From: a bacterium | Lineage (GTDB): Bacteria > Desulfobacterota > S145-22 | Direction of reading: 5' to 3' | NCBI GenBank assembly: GCA_029934085.1 | Contig: JAOZMY010000003.1 | Coordinates: 1-36,335 of the forward strand | DNA length: 36,335 bases | Shown here: positions 31,412 through 36,335 of the stretch, piece by piece | Layout: each line of letters starts with the position of its first letter | Position numbering within the stretch: the stretch's first letter is position 1 | The notes under the pieces: model-generated | Database searches by the model: none | Told to the model about the DNA's origin: nothing | Seen by the model: only the letters and a program-made list of their open reading frames with translations | Program-made: the position numbers and the translations under genes

Positions 31412-32434
31412 ATGAAGAAGCATTTTTACGCAGTATTGGTAGGAATTCTGGTCGCGGCTTTCTTTTTGGGTGCGACGAACCAGACATGCCGGGCGGAGAA
31501 GGTCATTGAGTTGAAGCTGGCCCATTTCATGTCCACGATGCATGTCCAGCATCGGAAGGCCTTCGTTCCCTTTGCGGAGAAGGTGGCGAAGTTGACGAAT
31601 GGCCGTGTCAAGATCAAGATCTATCCGGGAGGGACCTTGGGGAATCCCAAGACGATGGTGGACGCCATTCGAACGGGTATTACCGATATCGGTTTTGTCT
31701 TACCTGAATATGTTCCCGGTCGATTCAAGCGTAGTAGCGTCTTTGAGCTCCCCTTCATCTTTCACAGTGCCACCCACGTGACCAAGGTAACGTATGCTAT
31801 TTACAAGGATTACCTCGCCCCCGATTATAAAGACTTCAAGGTCCTCTGGTTCCTCTCGGCACCGTTGACCCAGTTGATGACGGTGAAGAAGCCGGTGAAA
31901 TCCCTCGCCGACATGAAGGGGCTTCGGATCCGTTCCGCCAGCGCTACGGAAACGGAGGGGTTGAAGCTCCTGGGAGCAAATCCCATCGGAATGCCTATTT
32001 CGGAGGTGTCTATTTCCCTTCAGAAGGGTGTGATCGAGGGGGTCTTCACCCCGTTTGCTGCCCTCAAGGCCCACAAGCTCATCGATATCGTGAAGTATAT
32101 GACGGAGTTTAATTACAACGGTGCCTTGATGTGCGTCTTGATGAACAAGAAGAAGTGGAACTCCCTTCCCGATTTTGCAAAGAAGGCCATCGACCAGGTG
32201 GCGAACAAGGACTTTGGAATCATGGCGGCCAAGGCCTTCGATGAGGAAGACGCGGAGAACGTGGCGGCGGGTAAGGCCAAAGGGATTAAGGTCTTTAAGC
32301 TTTCGGAGACGGACAAAGAGGTTATGCGCAAGAAGCTGAGCCATATCTGGGAGAAGTGGGTCAAGAAGAATGCTGGCCGATTCCCCGCCCAGAAGATTCT
32401 GGATGCCACCCTCGCCGCGGCCAAGGCAAATTAG
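31412..32434 (+). CDS. dctP: TRAP transporter solute-binding subunit (DctP family)
   Basis: The 340-residue periplasmic protein binds an organic acid and hands it to the DctQM membrane part. A signal peptide (FYAVLVGILVAAFFLG, cleavage after CRA) precedes the mature start EKVIELKLAHF. YPGGTLGNPKTMVDAIRTG and the GLRIRS motif (170-175), whose last Arg (174) normally pairs with the substrate carboxylate, are in the usual places. IGMPISEVSISLQKGVIEG is another family mark. AGGAGGGAGG stands before the ATG. It heads an operon with dctQ, dctM and a reductive dehalogenase gene. The substrate should be a carboxylate; its identity is not visible. Confidence 0.93.
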   Translation: MKKHFYAVLVGILVAAFFLGATNQTCRAEKVIELKLAHFMSTMHVQHRKAFVPFAEKVAKLTNGRVKIKIYPGGTLGNPKTMVDAIRTGITDIGFVLPEYVPGRFKRSSVFELPFIFHSATHVTKVTYAIYKDYLAPDYKDFKVLWFLSAPLTQLMTVKKPVKSLADMKGLRIRSASATETEGLKLLGANPIGMPISEVSISLQKGVIEGVFTPFAALKAHKLIDIVKYMTEFNYNGALMCVLMNKKKWNSLPDFAKKAIDQVANKDFGIMAAKAFDEEDAENVAAGKAKGIKVFKLSETDKEVMRKKLSHIWEKWVKKNAGRFPAQKILDATLAAAKAN

Positions 32435-32511: not shown

Positions 32512-33018
32512 ATGAAAAAACTTGTCTCGAAGTTCGAGAAGGGCCTCTATTTTTTCACCCGGCAGGTGGATCGTATCTCTTGGGGGGTCTTATTCTTCCT
32601 GATGCTTATGACCGTGTGCCAGGTCTTTCTGAGAAAACTCACGAATCATGCCATTCTCGGAACGGTGGAGTTGACCGAGCTGGCGATGGCCTTTATCGTT
32701 TTCTGCTCGCTGGCCGAGTGCCAGGTCCATGAGGGACATATCAAGGTGGACCTCGTCCTGAGCCGATTCAGCCCCCGTGTTCAGTCCTTTTTCGATATCC
32801 TGACCCAGGGAGCCTCTTTCGTGATCTTCAGCCTCATGACCATCGCCTTGTTTCGTCAGGCCGAGGAACTGAAGAGCGCGGGAGAGGTAACGGTCGATTT
32901 GGCCATTCCCATGTATCCTTTTGTCTATGTGGCGGCCTTTGGATGCGTGCTCCTGGCCCTTGTTCTCTTGGCCAAGGCCCTTCGGGCCCTAATCAACTTC
33001 CTCGAGGTGCAACCGTGA
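32512..33018 (+). CDS. dctQ: TRAP transporter small permease subunit (DctQ family)
   Basis: The 168-residue membrane protein has the four helices of DctQ (ISWGVLFFLMLMTVCQVFL, a second at VELTELAMAFIVFCSLAEC, a third at FFDILTQGASFVIFSLMTI and a last at FVYVAAFGCVLLALVLLAK). The stretch ELTELAMAFIVFCSLAECQV followed by EGHIKVDL matches family members. It pairs with DctM in the membrane and contacts DctP. GGGAG precedes the ATG. Its stop overlaps the GTG start of dctM (GTGA), so the two are made together. Confidence 0.9.
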   Translation: MKKLVSKFEKGLYFFTRQVDRISWGVLFFLMLMTVCQVFLRKLTNHAILGTVELTELAMAFIVFCSLAECQVHEGHIKVDLVLSRFSPRVQSFFDILTQGASFVIFSLMTIALFRQAEELKSAGEVTVDLAIPMYPFVYVAAFGCVLLALVLLAKALRALINFLEVQP

Positions 33019-34319
33019 GTCCCGAGGTCATCGGTCTCTTAGGCCTGCTGGTTCTCTTTATCCTCCTGGCCATGCGGATGCAGATAGGGTTTGCCATGGC
33101 CCTGGTAGGATTTGTTGGATTCATCATTCTCAACAATTTCCAGGCGGCCATGGGGGTCCTGGGGCTTGAACCCTTCAAGATCACGGCGGATTATACTTTG
33201 AGTGTGATCCCCCTCTTTCTGCTCATGGGGGAATTTGCCAACGAGTCCCGCATGGGGGCCGAACTCTACGACATGCTGTATAAGTGGATCGGGTTTCTCC
33301 CCGGCGGGTTGGCCATGGCCACGGTGGGGGCGTGCGCTTTCTTTGCGGCGATTACGGGATCTTCACTCGCCACAGCGGCCATGTTCGGGATGATCGCCTA
33401 TCCGGAGATGAGAAATTTGAACTACGCGGAGACCCTCGCGACGGGGTGCATCGCCGCGGGAGGCACCTTGGGGATCTTGATTCCGCCAAGCTCCGTCCTG
33501 ATTATCTACGGTATCCTGACGGAACAGAGTATCGCGCGCCTCTTTATTGCCGGGATGCTGCCGGGTATCCTCCTCGCACTCATCTTCATGGGAACCATCT
33601 TCGTGATTACCAAACGCAGACCTGAACTGGGGGCCCCTGGTCCCAGGTTTACCATCAAAGAGAAGGTAACCTCCCTGAAGGCCACGTGGGGAATCATTCT
33701 CCTATTCATCCTGGTCATCGGCGGCCTCTATACCGGGTGGTTTACCCCTACGGAGGCCGCGGGTGTGGGGGCCTTTGGCGCCTTTGTCCTGGCCCTGCTG
33801 AAACGAAGTATGGGTTGGAAGACCCTGGTGGCTTCTCTGAAGGGAACCGTCCGCTCGACGGCCTTTATCTTTGGGATTCTTATCGGCGCCATGGTCTTTC
33901 AGTATTTCATGACCCTGAGTCAAATCCCGGAGAAACTGGCCTCATGGATCGTCATGATAGGGGTGGGCCGTTACGTGGTGGTTTCCGCCATCATCCTGGC
34001 CTTCATGGTAATGGGCTGTTTCATGGAGGGGCTGTCCATCATGTTTCTGGCGGTTCCCATCGTTTATCCCATCGTAATCCGGTTGGGTTTTGATCCCATC
34101 TGGTTTGGGGTCATCATTACCCTTACCATGGAAATGAGCCTGATCACCCCGCCCGTGGGGGTCAATGTTTTTGTCCTGCACGGAGTGGTGAAAGATGTTC
34201 CCATGTACACGATCTTTCGCGGCATCCTTCCCTTTTGGATCGCCATGATCATTTGCATCATTATTCTTATTGTCTTCCCGCAAATCGCGCTGTTCCTTCC
34301 AAACACGATGATGGGTTAG
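33015..34319 (+). CDS. dctM: TRAP transporter large permease subunit (DctM family)
   Basis: The 434-residue subunit forms the sodium-coupled transport channel and has about 12 hydrophobic segments. Family marks include FLLMGEFANESRMGAELYD, GACAFFAAITGSSLATAAMF, GTLGILIPPSSVLIIYGILT and FTPTEAAGVGAFGAF. The start is GTG at 33015, which overlaps the dctQ stop; a longer frame from 32943 lies inside dctQ and is rejected. The rdhA-like gene begins 9 bases after its stop, and TAGGAG of the stop region serves as its ribosome site, so transporter and dehalogenase homologue are co-expressed. Confidence 0.93.
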   Translation: MSPEVIGLLGLLVLFILLAMRMQIGFAMALVGFVGFIILNNFQAAMGVLGLEPFKITADYTLSVIPLFLLMGEFANESRMGAELYDMLYKWIGFLPGGLAMATVGACAFFAAITGSSLATAAMFGMIAYPEMRNLNYAETLATGCIAAGGTLGILIPPSSVLIIYGILTEQSIARLFIAGMLPGILLALIFMGTIFVITKRRPELGAPGPRFTIKEKVTSLKATWGIILLFILVIGGLYTGWFTPTEAAGVGAFGAFVLALLKRSMGWKTLVASLKGTVRSTAFIFGILIGAMVFQYFMTLSQIPEKLASWIVMIGVGRYVVVSAIILAFMVMGCFMEGLSIMFLAVPIVYPIVIRLGFDPIWFGVIITLTMEMSLITPPVGVNVFVLHGVVKDVPMYTIFRGILPFWIAMIICIIILIVFPQIALFLPNTMMG

Positions 34320-34328
34320 GAGTTTGAT

Positions 34329-35774
34329 ATGACGAGGATACTTCTTTTTCTGGACGCCCTGTTCTTCATCGGCGCCGTCTATTTCACCTTTGAATCGGTC
34401 AGGGAAAGGGAATACCAGGCCCCGAAGATAGGGGTGGGATTAAGTCTTTTCGCCCTCCTCTTGGCGGGGTTTATCCTGTGGGTGCCTCCTTTGAGACCAT
34501 TTATAGCAGTCTTTTTCGGTGTTGGGGTTGCGGCCTTGATCGTCTTTGCGGTGCCGACGCCGCCGGATCCCAGGATCTTGCAGGGCGCCCAAGGACATAT
34601 CGTTGAGGAGGCTATTCGCCACGATGAAAGGGATGTTTCCTTCGCCCGCGTGAGAGGCGTTCCCCCAGGAACCCCTTACTACAAGCGGTATTACAGCATG
34701 CATCCCGAAAGGGAGGAACCGGATGCTATCCGGCGGGAGAAGGGCCTTTTGGGGGAGCCCGGACGGGTAGATAAACGCTACCGTCCCAATGTGGCCATGA
34801 TGGAGGCCTCCTTTGATATGCCCAACTTTCTTGGGCTCTATGCGGAGGCAGCGCCGTCGCCTGAAAACCCACCTTATGAAGCCGATCCTAAAAAGGCCAC
34901 GGAGATCGTGAAAAATCTTGCTCTGACCCTTGGAGCGGACATGGTGGGGATTTGTAAGGTAAATCCCAACTGGGTCTATTCCCACCGCGGTGAAATCTTC
35001 TACGATCGGTGGGAGGATTGGGGGAAAGAGATCGATCCGGAGGAACTTCCCCCCTATGCCGTGGTCATGTTGACGGAGATGCGGGAGGATCACGTCTGTG
35101 CGGCACCTCACACCCCCACGGTGGCGGAGAGCGCCCGGAACTATGGCCGCGGGTCCTATCTGAGCACGGTGCTTGCCTGGTGGTTTGCCCATATGGGCTA
35201 TCGTGGCGTTGCCCAGAACTCCCGGCATTACGATATCGCCCTTCCGCCTCTGGCGGTGGACGCCGGCCTGGGGGAAGTTGGGCGGCTTGGGTATCTCATC
35301 GCCCCCAAGTTCGGGGCGCGGGTGCGAATCTTTGCCGTGTTGACCGACATGCCGCTCGTGCCGGACAAACCCATCTCCATCGGGGTAGACGAATTCTGTA
35401 AATGGTGTAAGAAGTGCGCGGAATCGTGTCCATCCAGATCTATCCTGATGGAGGACAAGGTGGTCTATAATGGGGCGTTGAAGTGGAAGCTGGACGCGGA
35501 CAGCTGTTTCGATTACTGGACTAAGGTGGGAACCGACTGCTCCATCTGTATGGCGGTCTGTCCCTACAGCCGTCCCAACACTCCTTTGCACCGCATCGTG
35601 CGGTGGTACGTGGCGCGATCCCGCCTGGCGCAGAAATACTTTCCGCTGGTAGATAATTTTCTTTATGGGAGAAAGTGGCGTCCAAAGCCGGTGCCTTCCT
35701 GGCTCGACTATCCCAAAGGGAAAGACGTGGTCAAGGAGGAGTATGGATTGGGCAGGGTAAACGATTTTGGATAA
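34329..35774 (+). CDS. membrane-anchored reductive dehalogenase homologue (RdhA-like, 2x[4Fe-4S])
   Basis: RdhA enzymes use cobalamin and two [4Fe-4S] clusters to remove halogens reductively. The 481-residue protein has three N-terminal membrane helices (about 4-22, 36-52, 57-77) in place of the usual Tat signal. The core contains GRGSYLSTVLAWWFAHMGYR, then DAGLGEVGRLGYLIAPKFGA and RIFAVLTDMPL, as in RdhA. Cluster 1 is C357-x2-C360-x2-C363-x3-C367-P; cluster 2 uses C393 plus C404-x2-C407-x3-C411-P. Queuosine reductase QueG shares part of this fold but is shorter and lacks the anchor. Placement directly behind a TRAP importer is the oddity. Halogen removal is inferred; other reductions are possible. 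No maturation chaperone or separate RdhB is present. Confidence 0.82.
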   Translation: MTRILLFLDALFFIGAVYFTFESVREREYQAPKIGVGLSLFALLLAGFILWVPPLRPFIAVFFGVGVAALIVFAVPTPPDPRILQGAQGHIVEEAIRHDERDVSFARVRGVPPGTPYYKRYYSMHPEREEPDAIRREKGLLGEPGRVDKRYRPNVAMMEASFDMPNFLGLYAEAAPSPENPPYEADPKKATEIVKNLALTLGADMVGICKVNPNWVYSHRGEIFYDRWEDWGKEIDPEELPPYAVVMLTEMREDHVCAAPHTPTVAESARNYGRGSYLSTVLAWWFAHMGYRGVAQNSRHYDIALPPLAVDAGLGEVGRLGYLIAPKFGARVRIFAVLTDMPLVPDKPISIGVDEFCKWCKKCAESCPSRSILMEDKVVYNGALKWKLDADSCFDYWTKVGTDCSICMAVCPYSRPNTPLHRIVRWYVARSRLAQKYFPLVDNFLYGRKWRPKPVPSWLDYPKGKDVVKEEYGLGRVNDFG

Positions 35775-35824: not shown

Positions 35825-36335
35825 ATGTCTTTCCAGCCATTGGAGAAAAAGAGGTATTCTGAGCAGGTCGCACACGAGATAGAATCAAAAATCCTTAATA
35901 ATGAGCTGAGGTTAGGGGAACGTCTCCTTTCAGAGGTTGACCTGGCAAAGGAATTTCGTGTCAGCCGGACCGTCATTCGAGAGGCCCTGCGCCTGCTGGA
36001 AGGGCGAGGCTTCGTCAAGATAAAACGGGGGCCCAAGGGGGGCATCTTCGCAAACGACGGTTTCCACAAACCCATGAGTGAGGCGCTTGGGCGCCTGGTT
36101 GATTCTGGGAAGGTTTCTGCAGAGGATATTTTTGAGATTCGCCTCCTTATCGAGCCCTATGTGGCGGCGGAGGCGGCCAGACGTGCCACAAAAGAGGACA
36201 TTGAAGAACTCCAAGCCCTCATCAATCTTTGCAAAGATCATATGGAGGACAGCGAGTATCTCCAGAGGGTTCGAGGGAAATTCCATGTCCAACTCGCCCA
36301 GGCCACGGGAAACCCCGTGTTGCTCATCATGATGA
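35825..36335 (+). CDS. FadR-type GntR-family transcriptional regulator, cut by window edge
   Basis: About 170 codons are visible before the window ends, found by direct translation. The N-terminal winged helix has RYSEQVAHEIESKILNNELR, GERLLSEVDLAKEFRVSRTV and VIREALRLLEGRGFVKIKRG. The start of an FCD effector domain follows (IFEIRLLIEPYVAAEAARRA, then FHVQLAQATGNPV with a probable metal-ligand His). FCD domains bind small organic acids, in keeping with regulation of the adjacent TRAP-dehalogenase genes by their substrate. GGGAG is 9 bases before the ATG. The C-terminal quarter is missing from the window. Confidence 0.92.
   Translation, partial: MSFQPLEKKRYSEQVAHEIESKILNNELRLGERLLSEVDLAKEFRVSRTVIREALRLLEGRGFVKIKRGPKGGIFANDGFHKPMSEALGRLVDSGKVSAEDIFEIRLLIEPYVAAEAARRATKEDIEELQALINLCKDHMEDSEYLQRVRGKFHVQLAQATGNPVLLIMM

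Follow-up and report, generated by a model that had tools for sequence, protein, structure and literature searches.

The closest described relatives of the protein considered here are the hybrid reductive dehalogenases (hybrid RDases), which, as set out in the 2019 account, combine an RdhA domain bearing two iron-sulfur motifs with three N-terminal helices, the first two of which are joined by a loop holding an EXE motif, and lack both a Tat signal and an rdhB (Atashgahi 2019, PMC6797604; Jochum et al. 2018). The account describes a set of about 70 sequences of about 450-490 aa, Deltaproteobacteria included and contributing many of them; reports TMHMM runs that placed the C-terminus in the cytoplasm about as often as on the exoplasmic side; and names orientation and substrate as open questions (Atashgahi 2019, PMC6797604).

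Two better-characterised systems frame these questions. In the solved PceA2B2 structure of Desulfitobacterium hafniense (8q4h), the Tat-exported PceA stands on the P side with a separate three-helix PceB, whose E61 and E63 lie in the TMH2-TMH3 loop on that side, and the menaquinone site of PceA includes K489, H495, R499, D515, and Y520 (Cimmino et al. 2023, PMC10624902). That study suggested that the hybrids resemble PceA2B2 and repeated the EXE link. The catabolic RdhA proteins (NpRdhA, BhbA), like the protein studied here, have no Tat signal and are predicted to act in the cytoplasm. They differ in having no membrane helices, in carrying a second RdhA-like half together with a reductase part, and in the replacement of the quinone-site His and Tyr by Glu and Arg in this self-sufficient type. 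The BhbA gene of Comamonas 7D-2 follows that of a tripartite-tricarboxylate (TTT) binding protein, a catabolic precedent for the gene order described below.

Here, we analyze a hybrid RDase encoded in a window of 36,335 nucleotides (positions 1 to 36,335 of contig JAOZMY010000003.1, assembly GCA_029934085.1) from a bacterium of the Desulfobacterota lineage S145-22. It is a real and conserved member of the group published in 2019, not a new kind, and the protein itself is no different from those already described; its TRAP/GntR operon and the uniform charge pattern of the family are not discussed in the accessible portions of that account (PMC6797604). To the published work we add a helix-by-helix correspondence with RdhB, a consistent prediction of an inward-facing catalytic domain, and a recurrent TRAP operon.

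The hybrid dehalogenase and its active site

The open reading frame at 34329..35774, on the forward strand like every feature of the window given below, encodes a 481-aa cobalamin/iron-sulfur reductive dehalogenase with a membrane anchor fused at its N-terminus. It is preceded by an AGGAG ribosome-binding site and starts 9 bp past the dctM stop; nucleotides 34329-34577 specify residues 1-83, and the RdhA catalytic domain occupies about residues 82-460 (34572..35708), as delimited by profile, PDB and fold matches and by the structural model. The protein matches NCBIfam TIGR02486 (E 5e-55, 187.5 bits, cut-off 160), and both PceA and NpRdhA are recovered by PDB sequence matches (E ~1e-45, with E to 1e-74 in a profile search) and by Foldseek (E ~1e-20, with chain A only covered). 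Its identity to the characterised enzymes is remote, at 22-28%. Pfam finds FeS/dehalogenase domains only, with no fused NAD(P)H-oxidoreductase part, and the AlphaFold model has a mean pLDDT of 90.8.

The sequence-only reading that drew attention to this gene had proposed that its first 80 or so residues form three membrane helices in place of a Tat signal. Hydropathy (segments 4-20, 34-50, and 59-75) and the AlphaFold model (pLDDT 94-98 over residues 1-74) agree on this for residues ~1-75, with helix 1 at residues 2-25 (34332..34403), helix 2 at 31-51 (34419..34481), and helix 3 at 53-74 (34485..34550). The N-terminus (MTRILLFLD...) has no twin-Arg (Tat) motif, and there is neither an rdhB beside the gene nor room for one, with 9 bp to dctM and 50 bp to gntR. 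E26-R27-E28 (34404..34412) sits where that reading had placed it, in the turn between helices 1 and 2, and is the ExE part of a family motif E-x-E-x-R-A (residues 26-31). We gathered 45 distinct complete three-helix homologues from Desulfobacterota by searches of relatives, the phylum, another class, and contigs; the first Glu is present in all 45, the second in 41, and the Ala in 44. In an alignment of 43 hybrid sequences, E26 is invariant and E28, R30, and A31 are nearly so; these four belong to the small number of positions conserved in the anchor region. The reading had named variability of the glutamates as what would tell against it; since they are conserved among the 45 homologues, the E-R-E is more than a chance occurrence. 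Every feature by which hybrid RDases are recognised is thus present: two [4Fe-4S] motifs in an RdhA domain, a three-helix N-terminus with EXE in the helix 1-2 loop, and the absence of both a Tat signal and an adjoining rdhB.

The catalytic core is also conserved. Tyr272 (35142..35144) and Arg333 (35325..35327) align with Tyr246 and Arg305 of SmPceA and are found in 47 of 47 hybrids; this active-site pair is shared with the respiratory RdhAs of the PceA type, which differ in bearing a Tat signal peptide. The two [4Fe-4S] motifs, Cys357-360-363-367 and Cys393/404-407-411 (35397..35561), are invariant in 43 hybrids. Behind them, two helices (residues 419-430 and 432-446; 35589..35666) match, by alignment and in the model, the menaquinone-binding helices of D. 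hafniense PceA (roles from PMC10624902), with H421, D442, and Y446 equivalent to its H495, D515, and Y520. These residues are kept in 45, 44, and 45 of 47 hybrids, respectively. Most homologues without membrane helices also have all three (H in 35/40, Y in 29/40), and we rejected them as a marker of membrane coupling; for the same reason they allow, and do not prove, coupling to quinol, which is possibly the electron supply of the window RdhA. Genes for a menaquinone-type decarboxylase and an MqnP-like prenyltransferase are present in the genome, and a search of it (94% complete) for MqnA, MqnC, and MenD gave none above cut-off; MqnC was above cut-off in only two of the 18 hybrid-bearing genomes checked. 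At locus L154 (G000:C46), an MqnP-like prenyltransferase adjoins a menaquinone-type UbiD decarboxylase, in a genome with no MqnA, MqnC, or MenD above cut-off.

In a tree built from the catalytic domain only, 46 of 47 hybrids fall in one clade with moderate support (84), which suggests that the fusion was mostly a single old event. The remaining one, a three-helix RdhA with ESCIRA instead of ExE (L080, 5751-7157), lies outside this main clade, possibly as an independent fusion or through a long-branch effect. Two genomes (G460 and G451) encode 16-18 rdhA homologues each, of which those examined mostly have no Tat signal, membrane helices, or adjoining RdhB.

Linkage to TRAP transporter genes

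The dehalogenase gene is the fourth in a run, dctP-dctQ-dctM-rdhA-gntR, that is transcribed in one direction with short gaps and has the appearance of an operon, gene order being the ground on which co-transcription is proposed. Its products are the TRAP solute-binding protein DctP (31412..32434; PF03480, 2e-57), the small membrane subunit DctQ (32512..33018; PF04290, 1e-26), the large membrane subunit DctM, whose GTG start overlaps the dctQ stop (33015..34319; PF06808), and, after rdhA, an FCD-domain GntR-family regulator (35825..36335; PF00392, PF07729) that continues past the window to 36487 (locus L004). DctP retains the conserved ligand-site Arg in a RIRSAS segment that aligns with solved TRAP binding proteins, a residue that we take to bind carboxylate.

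The dctPQM-rdhA order recurs in other genomes (G001, G002, G348, G418, and G423), where 10-56 bp separate dctM from rdhA. The gntR gene follows rdhA in G002 and G418, and also follows an rdhA fragment in G003. G086, G449, and G405 have the alternative order gntR-rdhA-dctPQM, and parts of it are found in G451 and G407. The existence of two gene orders argues for a functional link between the transporter and the dehalogenase. Overall, TRAP genes lie on the same strand within 1.5 kb of 11 of 49 hybrids versus three of 54 rdhA homologues that are not hybrids (Fisher p 0.013, an optimistic value because related hybrids are not independent), whereas an adjacency of ~2% would be expected from 17 DctM genes in the 2.4 Mb genome. 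TRAP linkage was rejected as a universal feature of hybrids: the importer is not an obligatory partner, because 38 of the 49 have no TRAP gene within 1.5 kb on the stretch analysed. A second shared partner was sought in the neighbourhoods of the other hybrids and none was found, two of them having acyl-CoA synthetase-like genes. An open-access literature search found no prior report of a hybrid-TRAP operon. Where the linkage occurs, it suggests that the dehalogenase works with the adjacent organic-acid importer.

Probable kinship of the anchor with RdhB and its predicted orientation

In separate RdhBs whose genes adjoin rdhA, the loop joining the final two helices has the sequence E-x-E-P-x-A or one close to it, as in SYVEIEPKAA of Dehalococcoides and SYGEDEPQAG of Sulfurospirillum. 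The anchor of the hybrids, fused in frame to RdhA, is not a separate small protein as an RdhB is; profile-profile comparison nevertheless pairs its helix 1-loop-helix 2 with the last two RdhB helices and their ExE (hhalign Prob 88.9, E 2.4e-6, 48 columns), helix 1 aligning with the penultimate and helix 2 with the last helix, and finds no RdhB counterpart for helix 3. A single-sequence phmmer search of the PDB with one RdhB as query missed PceB and returned rhodopsin noise only. The reading had proposed a natural RdhB-RdhA fusion, to be abandoned should profile searches find no similarity of the N-terminus to RdhB. As the hhalign pairing shows, the similarity exists, and the proposal stands in part: judged by profile comparison, helices 1-2 and the ExE loop are RdhB-like, their homologues in RdhB being its last two helices, and helix 3 is an addition, such that hybrid helices 1-2-3 are not equivalent to RdhB helices 1-2-3. 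The tie between the E-x-E and RdhB, which the reading offered as its own, was correct and had already been published (PMC6797604; PMC10624902).

The comparison with PceA2B2 (8q4h) cuts two ways. The fold, the Tyr/Arg site, the clusters, the quinone-site His/Asp/Tyr, and an ExE loop between two anchor helices are common to both. The window protein differs in that its anchor is fused, has no match to the first helix of PceB, possesses the extra helix 3, and is predicted to hold the catalytic domain in the cytoplasm. With an odd number of helices (three), the ExE loop and the catalytic domain always lie on the same side of the membrane, as in PceAB.

Which side this is had been left open by the reading, and need not be, as the charge distribution across the family favours the cytoplasm. 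In the hybrids, Lys and Arg average 6.3 over loop 1 and the 15 residues that follow helix 3 taken together, against 1.2 in the N-terminal tail plus loop 2. The bias has the same sign in 45 of 45 hybrids and in 13 of 13 clusters at 60% identity, and its mean of 5.07 compares with 2.93 +/- 0.34 (maximum 4.13) in shuffles keeping the segment lengths. Six PceB-type RdhBs have 0-1 Lys/Arg in the ExE loop, and five of the six have 2-5 on both flanks; the pattern of the hybrids is the reverse of that in most separate RdhBs. Hence, the positive-inside rule, which is a tendency and here draws part of the loop-1 charge from the conserved motif Arg, predicts that the ExE loop and the RdhA domain of the hybrids face the cytoplasm. 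The absent Tat signal fits a cytoplasmic catalytic domain, though the genome does encode TatC.

Alternatives to this reading bear on the ancestry of the anchor, on its orientation, and on the chemistry that it serves. The ExE resemblance might be convergent or incidental, in which case the anchor would be a generic set of three helices with an acidic turn and no kinship to RdhB. Scored one by one, however, ten separate RdhBs reached 17.6-33.2, whereas the median of 150 control helix pairs was 10.9, and six of the ten exceed every genuine control pair, the top-scoring 'control' being an ORF that holds an unrecognised real RdhB. Moreover, the motif common to both families is longer than the two glutamates, running E-x-E-(P)-x-A between two helices, and the catalytic partner of both anchors is of the same family. 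We accordingly hold convergence to be quite improbable, even granting that helix pairs carry little information, that RdhB families are short and diverse, and that the hhalign probability is 89% and not 99%. In PceA2B2 the ExE loop of RdhB lies on the P side (PMC10624902), and homology with RdhB thus lends something to the notion that the hybrid is oriented as PceAB and exposes both its ExE loop and its catalytic domain to the periplasm, as a respiratory menaquinol:organohalide oxidoreductase contributing to the pmf; the retention of the quinone-site residues and the TatC of the genome could be read likewise. Yet no Tat motif or twin Arg precedes helix 3, export of a cofactor-loaded domain would have to proceed with no known signal, and the Lys/Arg distribution is opposite in every one of the 45 hybrids. 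This periplasmic arrangement appears unlikely to us, and we prefer the inward-facing one.

A different objection concerns activity, namely that the protein is a membrane-tethered reductase and not a dehalogenase, its corrinoid fold reducing another substrate, as in QueG relatives, while the helices simply anchor it. The invariance of Tyr272 and Arg333, as in PceA, speaks against this, as does a score above the TIGR02486 cut-off and far above that of QueG. Its attraction lies in the low identity to characterised enzymes, in neighbourhoods that apart from TRAP are diverse, and in the literature surveyed, which reports neither activity nor other biochemistry for any hybrid. We give it a small share of the probability and retain dehalogenation as the preferred function.

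Beside these comparisons, other arrangements of RdhA and RdhB-like proteins came to light. At L057 (1271-2823), an rdhA homologue without Tat signal or helices is directly followed by an ORF of 78 aa whose two helices flank ELEPRA; of the RdhB-type proteins, this one matches the hybrid anchor best, and the rdhA-ORF pair is possibly a cytoplasm-facing two-gene version. Four further rdhA homologues (L061 2375-4257, L064 2170-4131, L132 1742-3641, and L133 2231-4106) begin with two hydrophobic segments and lack a Tat motif. Each is followed by a separate RdhB-like ORF with GEKEPGA/KA; they form one clade in the tree and carry Gln and Phe where the quinone site has Asp and Tyr.

A proposed inward-facing dehalogenase and its implications

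The model that we favour, and consider more likely than not, is that of an inward-facing hybrid dehalogenase with an RdhB-like anchor, fed by quinol or another donor and acting on a TRAP-imported acid. Helices 1-2 and the ExE loop of its three-helix anchor would be kin to the end of RdhB, with the corrinoid/two-[4Fe-4S] RdhA domain behind. Helix 3 would return the chain to the ExE side, and the iron-sulfur/quinone-site face of RdhA would sit on the anchor much as PceA does on PceB. Relative to PceAB, the unit as a whole is most likely turned over, its ExE loop and catalytic domain lying on the cytoplasmic side, a placement that would remove the need for Tat export. Electrons would probably pass from membrane quinol (or another cytoplasmic donor) via the two clusters to cob(I)alamin, which would remove the halogen, with Tyr272 the likely source of the proton. 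An organic acid imported by the putatively co-transcribed TRAP transporter, with the GntR regulator in control, is the likely substrate, and such a supply would point to a catabolic or redox-balancing role rather than to pmf-generating respiration. More tentatively, and with less confidence than we place in the model for this locus, the hybrids as a group may be inverted PceABs that couple quinol oxidation to dehalogenation of TRAP-imported halogenated acids at the inner face of the membrane, with neither Tat export nor pmf.

The charge pattern in 45 homologues, the RdhB helix match, and the TRAP operon turn the orientation and substrate questions raised in 2019 into specific tests, with the TRAP binding protein as a direct handle on the substrate of the hybrid. 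If inward-facing, the hybrids would constitute a membrane-bound but probably non-respiratory class of dehalogenases, and their genes in metagenomes should be taken with caution as evidence of organohalide respiration.
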